Source: Lachnospiraceae bacterium (lineage in GTDB: Bacteria; Bacillota; Clostridia; Lachnospirales; Lachnospiraceae). From it: 64,000 nt of DNA. Under the pieces are notes generated by a model. That model saw only the letters and a program-made list of their open reading frames with translations. It was not told the origin of the DNA and searched no databases. Positions 32,321 to 61,603 of the stretch are shown here, piece by piece (position 1 is the stretch's first letter; every line of letters begins with the position of its first letter). The position numbers and the translations under genes are program-made. Location: contig SVEQ01000002.1 in the NCBI GenBank assembly GCA_015057325.1, positions 186,001 through 250,000 on the forward strand, in the 5' to 3' direction.

Positions 32321-32352
32321 AAAAAAGCTGTTACCTATTACAAGTAACAGCT
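32321..32352 (-). terminator. Terminator after the GlgB-like gene
   Basis: Nine-bp stem AGCTGTTAC / GTAACAGCT then six T on the minus strand; 15 bp past the stop codon. Confidence 0.82.
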
Positions 32353-32366
32353 CTTATAATACATGT

Positions 32367-34793
32367 TTATTTTGAAGAATCCGCTTTCTTAACTGCCGTT
32401 TTTTTTGCAACAGTTTTCTTAGCCACGGTCTTCTTTTCAGATGTCTTCTTAGCTATCGTTTTCTTGGCTGAAGTCTTAGCAGCAGTCTTCTTAGTAGTTG
32501 TTTTCTTGGTCGTAGTCTTCTTAGCTGCAACCTTCTTCTCAACCTTAGGCTCTTCATAAGGAACCGCTTCCTCATCTGTAAGCTTGAAAATGCTCATAGA
32601 TAAAGGTGCAAGGTTAATCACAATCGAATTCCTTCTGCCGTCACACGTAGAACGTCTGCTTGCTCTTACATGCGGATTAACGCTTCCGTCTCCACCAAAC
32701 TTTGTAAGTTCGCTTGAAAAGATTTCCTTGTAATTACCTACATGTGGAACTCCCACCTTGTAATCCTCATGCGTAACAGGTGTAAAATTACAAATAATAA
32801 GAAGAGTATCTTCTTTCTTACCTGTCTTTCTAAGGAATGAAACCACGCTGTCATTGGCAGCTGAATCATTAATCCACTCAAAACCTTCTGTATTGTTACC
32901 TAGCGCATATAACGCCGGCTCACTCTTATAGAAATGATTAAGTGCTTTCACATAACCGCGAAGTATTGTGTGAGCATCAAAATCAAGAAGATCCCATTCA
33001 AGTTCTCCGGTCTCTGAAAACTCTTTAAACTGTGCAAACTCCTGTCCCATGGCAAGCAATTTCTTGCCCGGATGAGTCATCATGCAACCGTACAACAAAC
33101 GAAGATTAGAGAATTTCTCCTCATATCCACCCGGCATCTTATCAACTATTGAGCCCTTACCGTCTATTACTTCATTATGCGAAAACTCCAATATGTAATT
33201 CTCATCATAAGCTGTTCCCAAACTGTCAACAAGCTTCTTATGCTCATATCTTCTGTATAACGGATCAAGCGACATATACGACAACAACGTTCTCATCCAC
33301 GATGTGTTCCACTGATAATCAAAGCCCATTCCGCCTTCATCAACATCATTGGTAAGCATTGGCCAGCCTGACTCTTCCTCAACAATCATCATGCAGTATG
33401 GGAAGCGCTCATTTATTATCGTATTCAAATCCTTCAAAAATGCTATAGCATCAAGGTTCTCATTACCGCCATACTGATTAGGAATCCAGTTACCGTAACT
33501 TCTTCCGTAGTCAAGATATAACATTGATGCAACACTATCAATTCTTAATCCGTCTAAATGATACTTAGACACCCAGTAGAGTGCATTGCATATAAGGTAA
33601 TTTCTTACTTCCTTACGTCCGTAATCAAATATATATGTACCCCATCTCGGATTCTCGCTTCTTCTGGAATCTTCCGGCTCATAGAGAGGTTGTCCGTCAA
33701 ATCTTGCAAGTCCGCTCTCATTCATAGGGAACTGACTTGGAACCCAGTCACAAATAACACCGATGCCCTTACTATGCATGTAATCAACAAAGTACATGAA
33801 ATCTGTCGGAGTACCGTATCGTGAAGTGGGTGCATAAAAACTTGATGTCTGATATCCAAAGCTGCTGTCATTCTCATGCTCCATAACCGGCATAAGCTCT
33901 ACATGAGTATAACCCATGTCTGCTACGTACTTTGCCAATTCCTTGGCAATCTCTCTATAAGTGAAGAACTCTCTACCGTCCTTAGGTCTCTTAAATGATC
34001 CCAAATGAACTTCATAAATGTTCATTGGAAGTTCCTGCTTAGCAACCTTCTTATCCTGAGAAATCTCAGATGACAACGCATTCATATATTGTGCATCTTT
34101 CCACTCATAAGAAAGATCTGCAACCATTGAAGCATTACCCGGACGAAGTTCGCAGGCATTGCCATATGGATCCGGCTTCATGAAAATGTTGCCGTTGGAA
34201 TTAAGTATTTCATACTTATAGATTTCACCGGTCTTAAGGCCCGGAATAAAGAGTTCAAACAAACCTGAATACTCAATTCTTCTCATAGTGTGAACTCTTC
34301 CGTCCCACTTGTTAAAGTTACCGACTACAGAAACGCGCGTAGCTCTTGGCGCCCACACTGCAAACAAAACTCCCTGCACACCATCAAGCATACATGGGTG
34401 TGCGCCAAGCTTCTCATATATTTCATAATGAACACCATCATTAAACCTGCTTATATCAATAGGATCAATAACCGGCTCAAATGAGTACGGATCAATGAAA
34501 TCATATTTCTTTCCGTCAGGATATGTAACCTTAAACGAATATACGAAACACTTTTCATCCGGAATTTTAATTGTAAAGAAACCGGGTATTCTGTCACTTA
34601 CAAGCTCAAACTTTTGTTTTGAGTTGTTCTTAACCGCAACAACCTTATCAGCTCCGGGATAGTATGCATTAATATAGACTCCATCAGTTGTCTCATGCAT
34701 TCCCAAAATATGATGCGGATTGTCATGTCGGCCTGCAACAAGTGCATCTACCTCAGCCCAGTTAATTGCAAATACAGCTCTTTTATCAGCCAT
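32367..34793 (-). CDS. glgB: GlgB-like 1,4-alpha-glucan branching enzyme homologue with altered active site and H1-like tail (808 aa)
   Basis: CBM48 region (about 130-220) and GH13 barrel. The nucleophile Asp is present in GLRIDSVASM (D419) and the acid/base Glu in VEEESGWP (about 473). However, the region I His of DWVPxHFP is Gln (Q354 in DWVPSQFP), and the region IV Asp of SHDEV is Asn (N540 in SHNEV). Both were checked at the codon level (CAG and AAT). These residues normally bind substrate and stabilise the transition state. Residues about 750-808 are a Lys/Thr/Ala tail of AKKT-type repeats resembling histone H1. The gene follows a P-loop kinase gene. It may be a poor enzyme, a glycogen-binding protein, or a lineage variant that remains active. 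Confidence 0.85.
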   Translation of the reverse strand: MADKRAVFAINWAEVDALVAGRHDNPHHILGMHETTDGVYINAYYPGADKVVAVKNNSKQKFELVSDRIPGFFTIKIPDEKCFVYSFKVTYPDGKKYDFIDPYSFEPVIDPIDISRFNDGVHYEIYEKLGAHPCMLDGVQGVLFAVWAPRATRVSVVGNFNKWDGRVHTMRRIEYSGLFELFIPGLKTGEIYKYEILNSNGNIFMKPDPYGNACELRPGNASMVADLSYEWKDAQYMNALSSEISQDKKVAKQELPMNIYEVHLGSFKRPKDGREFFTYREIAKELAKYVADMGYTHVELMPVMEHENDSSFGYQTSSFYAPTSRYGTPTDFMYFVDYMHSKGIGVICDWVPSQFPMNESGLARFDGQPLYEPEDSRRSENPRWGTYIFDYGRKEVRNYLICNALYWVSKYHLDGLRIDSVASMLYLDYGRSYGNWIPNQYGGNENLDAIAFLKDLNTIINERFPYCMMIVEEESGWPMLTNDVDEGGMGFDYQWNTSWMRTLLSYMSLDPLYRRYEHKKLVDSLGTAYDENYILEFSHNEVIDGKGSIVDKMPGGYEEKFSNLRLLYGCMMTHPGKKLLAMGQEFAQFKEFSETGELEWDLLDFDAHTILRGYVKALNHFYKSEPALYALGNNTEGFEWINDSAANDSVVSFLRKTGKKEDTLLIICNFTPVTHEDYKVGVPHVGNYKEIFSSELTKFGGDGSVNPHVRASRRSTCDGRRNSIVINLAPLSMSIFKLTDEEAVPYEEPKVEKKVAAKKTTTKKTTTKKTAAKTSAKKTIAKKTSEKKTVAKKTVAKKTAVKKADSSK

Positions 34794-34816: not shown

Positions 34817-35386
34817 TTATTCACCACGTAATTGCTTAACAACTCTCTTGATAGACTCGTTATATTCCTCTTCAGAAGAGTTCTCAAAAACAATCAATTC
34901 TTTGATGTTGTCAGGTTGATTGAAATTACAACCTGCAATATATTCATCCCAATGCTCAAGCTTCCATGTGTCTCTGTCAGAGTTTCTCTTAATCATACGC
35001 TCCTTGCATACTTCAACTCTTGTGTTAACCCAGATTACAACAAGCTCTGCACCATGCTTTGCAAGTCTTGCTCTTAACGAATCAAGATACTCATCATCTC
35101 TTATCTCATCTGTAAACGGAGCATTAATAAGAACTGTATCATTATAATCCAATGCTTCCATTGCCAAATCTAAGACACAATAATATTCGTAGTCACGGAT
35201 TTCTCTCTGGAAGAAATCAGAGGAACGGTTGTACTCCTCACCTGCAACCTTGAAAATCTGCTTTGATAATACAATAAGTGTATCCTTATCAAGATAAACG
35301 CAGTTAGTCAAAGCCTTAGCAAGTTGCTTGGAAATAAATGTTTTTCCACATGCCGGTGGTGACGTAACCAATATTAAATGTTTCAT
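34817..35386 (-). CDS. P-loop kinase-like ATPase of unknown substrate (189 aa)
   Basis: Walker A SPPACGKT (residues 9-16) near the N-terminus, then an acidic lid-like region and a C-terminal helix; overall an AAA_33/zeta-like small-molecule kinase fold. VIWVNTRVEVCKERMIKRN resembles the LID segment of nucleoside or sugar kinases. No partner antitoxin is present, so a zeta-toxin role is unlikely. It is the first gene of an operon with the GlgB-like gene (23-bp gap) from a promoter at 35482-35510. Function not known. Confidence 0.7.
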   Translation of the reverse strand: MKHLILVTSPPACGKTFISKQLAKALTNCVYLDKDTLIVLSKQIFKVAGEEYNRSSDFFQREIRDYEYYCVLDLAMEALDYNDTVLINAPFTDEIRDDEYLDSLRARLAKHGAELVVIWVNTRVEVCKERMIKRNSDRDTWKLEHWDEYIAGCNFNQPDNIKELIVFENSSEEEYNESIKRVVKQLRGE

Positions 35387-35481: not shown

Positions 35482-35510
35482 ATTATAACACAAAATAGCA
35501 ATTATGACAA
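35482..35510 (-). promoter_or_regulatory. Promoter of the kinase-glgB operon
   Basis: Minus strand TTGTCA (35505-35510), 17-bp spacer, TATAAT (35482-35487), about 95 bp upstream of the kinase start. Confidence 0.65.
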
Positions 35511-60118: not shown

Positions 60119-61570
60119 TTAATAGCCAAGCAGCAAACTATATAACTTCATATACTTCTCTGCAGATTTATCCCATGAGAAGTCTTCCTTCATTGCTCTA
60201 ACAACCATCTTGTTCCAATCGTCTCTATGGTCATAATAAACTTCTTTTGAATAGTTGATAATCTTAAGCATCTCGTCAGCATTATAATTGGTAAACGAGA
60301 AGCCTGTTCCGGTACCCTCGTACTCATTGTAAGGAACCACCGTATCCTTAAGACCACCTGTTTCTCTGACAATCGGGATTGTACCGTAACGAAGTGCAAT
60401 AAGCTGAGTCAAACCACATGGTTCAAACCTTGACGGCATAAGCACTGCGTCCGCAGCGGCATACAACTTATGAGCCCTTTCATCAGAATAGAAAATATTA
60501 GCCGAAACTCTATCAGAATAAACCCACTGATAATGCTTGAACATGTTCTCATACTTAGGCTCGCCCGTTCCGAGTACAACAAACTGAACATACGGATCAA
60601 CTATTCCTTCCATAACCCAATCAATAAGATCAAGTCCCTTCTGATCGGTAAGACGCGAAATAATCGCTATCATATACTTACCCTCATCAACCGGAAGACC
60701 TAGTTCCTTCTGAAGTTCCATTTTGTTGGTTGCTTTGCCCTTCTTGTAACTTCTGATATTGTACTTCTTAAAGAGTTTATCATCCTTGCTCGGATCATAG
60801 ACGTCATAATCAATTCCGTTAACAATACCGCAAAGCTTCCTGTTATGGAATCTAAGCATATCATCAAGGCCCTCACCATATTCAGGCGACTGAATCTCTC
60901 CCGCATAAGTATCACTTACTGTGGTAATGTAATCAGAAAATACCATACCGGCTTTAAGCATGTTGCCGTCCTTATAAAACTCCATTCTGTCAGGCGTAAA
61001 TACATAGTCAGGAAGTCCCGATATGTACTTAAATGTCTTAACATCCCATACACCCTGGAACTTAAGATTATGAATTGTCATAATAACCTTGGTTCCGGCA
61101 AAGAATGGATTATCATGATATAGAGTTCTAAGATAAACAGGAACAAGTCCAGCCTGCCAATCATGACAGTGTATTACGTCCGGCTTAAAGTTAATAACCG
61201 GAAGAATTGCAAGTGCTGCTTTACTAAAGAAAGTAAACTTCTCAATATCAAATCTTATTGTTCCGTATGGTGCCCATCCCGAAAAATAATACTCATTGTC
61301 GATAAAGTAATATGTAATTCCGTCCATCTCATATGTCATTATTCCTACATGCACGTTCTCAAAACGCTGTCCCAAATCCATGTAAAAATGATGAACATAT
61401 TGAAATTTTTCTCTATACTCCCATGGAATACATGTATAGTTAGGAATAACAACTCTTACATCGTATTCATCCTTGGGAAACATCTTCGGAAGCGCTCCGA
61501 CAACATCAGCCAACCCGCCGGTTTTGATAAACGGAACACATTCTGACGCAACAAAAAGTATATTCTTCAT
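60119..61570 (-). CDS. glgA: Glycogen synthase (ADP-glucose type, GT5, 483 aa)
   Basis: Transfers glucose from ADP-glucose to alpha-1,4-glucan. The N-terminal KTGGLADVVGALPK holds the ADP-glucose-binding KTGGL motif. The C-terminal acceptor region FEPCGLTQLIALRYGTIPIVRETGGLKDTV contains the catalytic Glu segment. Length 483 is usual. GGAGGG gives the ATG at 61570. Monocistronic promoter at 61604-61632. Unlike the GlgB homologue in this window, its active site looks intact. Confidence 0.95.
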   Translation of the reverse strand: MKNILFVASECVPFIKTGGLADVVGALPKMFPKDEYDVRVVIPNYTCIPWEYREKFQYVHHFYMDLGQRFENVHVGIMTYEMDGITYYFIDNEYYFSGWAPYGTIRFDIEKFTFFSKAALAILPVINFKPDVIHCHDWQAGLVPVYLRTLYHDNPFFAGTKVIMTIHNLKFQGVWDVKTFKYISGLPDYVFTPDRMEFYKDGNMLKAGMVFSDYITTVSDTYAGEIQSPEYGEGLDDMLRFHNRKLCGIVNGIDYDVYDPSKDDKLFKKYNIRSYKKGKATNKMELQKELGLPVDEGKYMIAIISRLTDQKGLDLIDWVMEGIVDPYVQFVVLGTGEPKYENMFKHYQWVYSDRVSANIFYSDERAHKLYAAADAVLMPSRFEPCGLTQLIALRYGTIPIVRETGGLKDTVVPYNEYEGTGTGFSFTNYNADEMLKIINYSKEVYYDHRDDWNKMVVRAMKEDFSWDKSAEKYMKLYSLLLGY

Positions 61571-61603
61571 ATGCAACCCTCCAAGAAATCAAATTCTTTA
61601 AAT

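Follow-up and report, generated by a model that had tools for sequence, protein, structure and literature searches.

The window, a stretch of 64,000 nucleotides from a Lachnospiraceae genome, encodes a homologue of the branching enzyme GlgB, hereafter copy B, in whose active site the transition-state-stabilizing Asp has given way to Asn. The reading that we favor, with a probability of roughly 0.6, is that copy B is an ancient GlgB whose branching activity would have been wholly or nearly lost on the branch leading to its genus, a group of gut bacteria, and which would have been retained as a glucan-binding protein. Its open reading frame is intact, as judged from the translation, and Pfam assigns it the domain succession GlgB_N, CBM48, barrel and C-terminal domain. 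Its scores exceed the curated cut-offs of the branching-enzyme equivalog models NF003811 (816 bits; cut-off 741), NF008967 (802; 577) and TIGR01515 (780; 464), while its score with the Pfam Glyco_hydro_70 model, 20.2 bits, is under the cut-off of 24. The features of the locus are as follows.

32367–34793, minus strand: copy B, GlgB homologue of 808 residues, GH13_9 branching-enzyme fold with altered active site (open reading frame and translation, NCBIfam NF003811, crystal-structure fold match)
34485–34760, minus strand: GlgB N-terminal domain, residues 12-103 (Pfam PF22019, 110 bits)
34161–34412, minus strand: CBM48 carbohydrate-binding domain, residues 128-211 (Pfam PF02922, 98 bits)
32934–34031, minus strand: GH13 catalytic barrel, approximately residues 255-620 (boundaries assigned by us)
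32370–32540, minus strand: basic C-terminal tail rich in Lys, Thr and Ala, residues 752-808, variable among orthologues
33873–33875, minus strand: codon of E307, Pro to Glu in 24/24 orthologues
33732–33734, minus strand: codon of Q354, cag, region I (canonical His)
33651–33653, minus strand: codon of N381, His to Asn in 24/24 orthologues
33537–33539, minus strand: codon of D419, nucleophile
33378–33380, minus strand: codon of E472, acid/base
33372–33374, minus strand: codon of E474, two residues from the acid/base, Ser to Glu in 24/24 orthologues
33174–33176, minus strand: codon of N540, aat, region IV (canonical Asp)
34817–35386, minus strand: AAA_33 P-loop kinase-like gene (kin), 23 bp upstream of copy B (Pfam PF13671, 50.8 bits; synteny)
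35482–35510, minus strand: promoter-like site TTGTCA-17-TATAAT, extended -10, preceding the kin/copy B pair (consensus scan)
32323–32355, minus strand: terminator-like hairpin with T-rich tail, directly 3' of copy B (consensus scan)

Region I of copy B reads CDWVPSQFP, with Q354 in place of the canonical His, and region IV reads FSHNEV, with N540 in place of the Asp, while region II (GLRIDSVASM) and region III (IVEEESGW) harbor the nucleophile D419 and the acid/base E472. The Asp-Glu-Asp triad of GH13 enzymes is hence incomplete, its third member being replaced. The alignment to the solved GlgBs runs without gaps across regions I and IV, and the residues that flank N540, namely S538, H539, E541 and V542, are invariant in 43 relatives, so that Q354 corresponds to the conserved His and N540 to the conserved Asp. 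The same observations rule out that a shifted residue fills the role of the Asp, an arrangement that the first-pass annotation of this DNA had named as a reason to abandon its own interpretation; it was looked for in the alignment and not found, and that interpretation would stand in this respect. The annotation had also described the two substitutions themselves and the retention of the nucleophile and the acid/base Glu, all of which are borne out by the motifs, the codons and the alignments, but in speaking of two substituted residues it understated a change that extends to 22 otherwise invariant columns (see below).

Each of the 26 genomes sampled from the genus has copy B, at 71-96% identity; two of them have gene fragments only, which leaves 24 aligned orthologues. 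Position 354 carries Gln in 23 of these and His in one (L029). At position 540, 22 have Asn, two have Thr and none has Asp. The genus-wide occurrence of Gln was established from these alignments. The only fragment read that covers the motifs (L035) also has Gln and Asn. Since the changes recur in the orthologues, they do not stem from sequencing error, and a pseudogene is likewise ruled out by the Gln in 23/24, the lack of Asp in 24/24, and the intact core reading frames of the 24 full-length copies. D419 and E472 are retained in 24/24, as are Y314, R417, H539 and E541. Two orthologues depart further from the common pattern. One (L023, G009 C11) has lost D349 (D349G, CGWVPSQFP) and has Thr540 and Asn420, a further loss in the active site. 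The other (L029/L059), which is nested in the clade, has His354 (SHFP) and keeps Asn540; its His may be a reversion, or Gln may never have become fixed in that lineage.

Loss of the third catalytic Asp is expected to entail loss of activity in GH13 enzymes. The first-pass annotation had set the His-to-Gln change in region I beside it. Gln is, however, the usual residue at that position in active GH70 transglycosylases, and the change is therefore not diagnostic of inactivity (PMC5388325, PMC5577214, PMC4919382). In GH70 enzymes, the Gln, the Arg, the nucleophile, the His and the transition-state Asp form hydrogen bonds with the glucosyl unit at -1, and the region-IV Asp belongs to the catalytic trio that GH13 and GH70 share. 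Copy B thus resembles the GH70 glucansucrases and 4,6-alpha-glucanotransferases in having Gln for the GH13 region-I His, but unlike them it has lost the transition-state Asp (PMC4919382, PMC5388325): of the GH70 combination of region-I Gln and intact triad it has the first and not the second. The Asp-to-Asn replacement would be the serious change in copy B, and the only one of the two to carry weight for a loss of activity.

Orthologues at approximately 60% identity in other Lachnospiraceae (NE2001, AC2031, LC2019 and others) are fully canonical. Those of the sister genera (e.g., NE2001 L073, AC2031 L080 and L066) share with copy B an upstream kin gene and differ from it in that the active site is canonical in all of them. 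In the tree, copy B and the sister orthologues group together with a support of 100, also when the altered columns are masked, and each sister genome has both this GlgB copy and an A-type copy. Gene order in the genus is ftsZ, spoIIGA, sigE, sigG, kin, glgB, mscS, argD. In the sister group, kin lies 1.4-3 kb upstream of glgB, and mscS follows glgB in some cases; the sister loci read in detail have a DUF1015 gene between kin and glgB (e.g., L066 4728-5963), which is absent there in the genus of the window. In more distant relatives only mscS follows glgB, in many of them. As the sister orthologues are canonical at a partly matching locus, the loss in copy B is derived, most simply by one event on the branch to the genus. 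The first-pass annotation had raised the question of whether the changes are lineage-wide among Lachnospiraceae GlgBs; within the genus they are (23/24 and 24/24), and they are derived. They are also rare, as a region-IV pattern accepting Asp or Asn gave 113 matches in 291 Clostridia genomes of 181 genera, 112 with Asp and one, that of the window, with Asn. A family-wide search for SHNEV in 397 genomes returned the window as the sole match; this pattern was limited to TCN serine codons, and the Clostridia-wide search is therefore the better evidence of rarity.

The same genome encodes two additional GlgBs with intact catalytic residues, as the annotation had suspected for at least one other enzyme.

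51028–53439 of contig C18 (G000): copy A, canonical paralogue, 50% identity to copy B
24332–26131 of contig C15 (G000): copy C (L003), third GlgB, approximately 600 residues, 38% identity to copy B

Copy A belongs to one family with copy B and has a similar basic C-terminal tail, but its motifs are all canonical (DWVPAHFP, ALRVDAVASM, IAEESTSW, ISHDEV). In copy C the His, Asp, Glu and Asp are conserved, although region I has the sequence FVMVHFA, and GlgB_N was not seen in it. The copy B model is matched at 36% identity by another GlgB of about the length of copy C, FdBE2 of Faecalibacterium duncaniae (21kg). Canonical catalytic residues are found in copy A (L001, L036-L040) and in copy C, both places being matched in most genomes of the genus, and the two copies accompany copy B in nearly all 26. 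Two full-length glycogen synthase genes (glgA) are present, one in the window at 60119-61576, 25 kb from copy B, and the other at G000 C19:28954-30375, together with one phosphorylase. With copies A and C intact, branching can occur elsewhere in the genome, and with these synthases and the phosphorylase, glycogen metabolism is expected to be functional without copy B.

The remodeling of copy B extends well beyond the two motifs. Among 183 reference columns that are at least 98% invariant in 79 canonical GlgBs, 22 are replaced in most copy B orthologues, and these are concentrated in the barrel (21 of 131 columns, vs. 1 of 52 elsewhere; Fisher p 0.006). In a matched comparison of each clade against all others, 27/207 columns were replaced in copy B, 7/207 in the sister orthologues, 4/192 in copy A and 3/193 in the A-type sister copies. 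New residues have become fixed at many positions: E307, T316, F319, N381, E474, S475 and M489 in 24/24 copy B orthologues, S353, Q354 and S420 in 23/24, and V471 and N540 in 22/24.

Such a pocket, conserved anew, might belong to an enzyme of changed chemistry or substrate, a slow or different glucanotransferase or hydrolase working through D419 and E472 in surroundings rebuilt by E307, E474, N381, T316 and Q354. We regard this as a genuine, if clearly less probable, alternative. The retention of the nucleophile, the acid/base and the other subsite -1 residues in 24/24 orthologues speaks for it, as do the seven positions fixed to a single new residue each and the precedent for Gln354 in active GH70 transglycosylases. 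Against it stand the Asp found in all 112 other clostridial region-IV matches, a residue that is catalytic in both GH13 and GH70, and the two orthologues with Thr540, one of which also lacks D349, as would better fit relaxed catalysis. Its most specific form seems rather unlikely: copy B would then be catalytically active through a novel arrangement of the GH13 active site, which does without the region-IV Asp and uses the new Glu307 and Glu474, and its substrate or linkage would differ from that of GlgB. Damage and new conservation coincide in this pocket, so that sequence alone cannot separate a pseudoenzyme from altered specificity. The conservation in 24/24 of D419, E472, R417, H539 and Y314, which a dead site need not keep, the Gln of GH70 and the His of L029 would all count against a dead site. 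A dead or nearly dead site nevertheless appears most likely given the genus-wide loss, its derived state, the 22 columns, the fixation of new residues, purifying selection, the keeping of canonical copies, and rarity.

The barrel of copy B is under strong purifying selection, with a dN/dS of approximately 0.023, equal to that of copy A, although only five pairs were unsaturated for copy B. At the same time, barrel divergence is 2.19 times that of copy A, copy B being the faster in 205/205 pairs from the 21 genomes with both copies, while the corresponding ratio in the sister genomes is 1.07. Purifying selection combined with a faster rate argues for altered constraint rather than decay.

The equal constraint on the two barrels, the equivalog-level scores and the match to the GlgB fold could suggest that copy B branches glucan as an ordinary GlgB does, with Asn and Gln tolerated at the two positions. 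The AlphaFold model has a mean pLDDT of 87 and a confident GlgB fold, and Foldseek matches it to Cyanothece BE1 (E 5e-82) and to 3k1d (TM 0.9). Like the GlgBs of Cyanothece (BE1; 5GQX, 5GR2), E. coli (1M7X) and M. tuberculosis (3K1D), copy B comprises GlgB_N, CBM48, the barrel and the C domain; it is approximately 41% identical to them and shares D419, E472, R417, H539, Y314 and D349, but it differs in the region-IV Asn, the region-I Gln and 20 more invariant columns. This concentration of replacements in the barrel, the doubled rate confined to this genus and the loss of the aromatic residues F523 and Y527 make an ordinary enzyme improbable. The latter two are replaced by variable polar residues in the copy B clade and lie on either side of position 526, which corresponds to Cyanothece L541, one of the residues mutated in the published Cyanothece structures; surface binding sites on domain A of the Cyanothece enzyme have been reported to influence activity and chain length. 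Low AlphaFold confidence at loop 307-317 was considered as a sign of disorder brought about by the changes, and was dropped because confidence is also low at the equivalent loop 298-311, and at 534-538, when a canonical orthologue (L066) is modeled as a control; since the active-site loops are poorly predicted in either case, the models cannot tell the two apart. A gene decaying toward loss, as the faster evolution relative to copy A and the further losses in orthologues such as L023 (D349G, Thr540) might suggest, is scarcely credible and already disfavored by the 24 full-length copies with intact core reading frames, the barrel dN/dS of about 0.02, and the new residues fixed genus-wide at approximately 75% protein identity.

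If copy B is a glucan-binding protein that no longer branches, Asn540 and Gln354 would keep the capacity for hydrogen bonding while losing the charge or the imidazole, and together with Y314, R417, D419, E472 and H539 they would hold a glucosyl unit in subsite -1. Because such a site would not support formation of the covalent glucosyl-enzyme intermediate, copy B might bind alpha-glucan chains without cleaving them. W640 is kept in 24/24 orthologues, as are W147, F160 and W163 of CBM48. The annotation had proposed a glycogen-binding pseudoenzyme or an enzyme of altered specificity; the intact N-terminal and CBM48 domains and the Asp-to-Asn change partly support this proposal, the His-to-Gln change lends it nothing, and a loss of activity would be likely.

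Copy B may then take part in the building of glycogen as a partner or modulator without catalysis of its own, in a manner comparable to that of ISA2 alongside ISA1 in plants. ISA2 is a non-catalytic GH13 paralogue of ISA1 and, like copy B, has lost conserved catalytic residues, coexists with an active paralogue and is maintained by selection (PMC12510319). Unlike copy B, ISA2 belongs to GH13_11, lacks at least four of five conserved residues, the nucleophile among them, and is a binding partner of ISA1 (PMC12510319); copy B keeps the nucleophile and the acid/base. Non-catalytic GH13 paralogues such as ISA2 shape starch in plants, and copy B would be comparable in having a working paralogue in the same cell. 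Our literature search found no paper on this clade and no description of a comparable bacterial case, in which a branching-enzyme pseudoenzyme is maintained by selection throughout a genus. Equivalog scoring gives EC 2.4.1.18 to copy B although a catalytic residue is missing, and standard annotation probably mislabels it as a branching enzyme; branching capacity of rumen and gut genomes deduced from glgB counts would be wrong where copy B is counted.

The kin gene and copy B are probably transcribed together. As the total of promoter-like sites in the consensus scan equals the chance expectation, an operon is no more than plausible. Within the genus, kin is 94-99% identical, far more conserved than copy B (about 72-97% in this comparison), and it stays near glgB across the sister genera.

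A function for the basic C-terminal tail in copy B is unsupported, given that its length ranges from 1 to 126 residues across the orthologues. Similar Lys/Thr/Ala-rich, histone-H1-like tails of up to approximately 126 residues and very variable length are found on GlgBs of several Lachnospiraceae clades, including copy A in L172.
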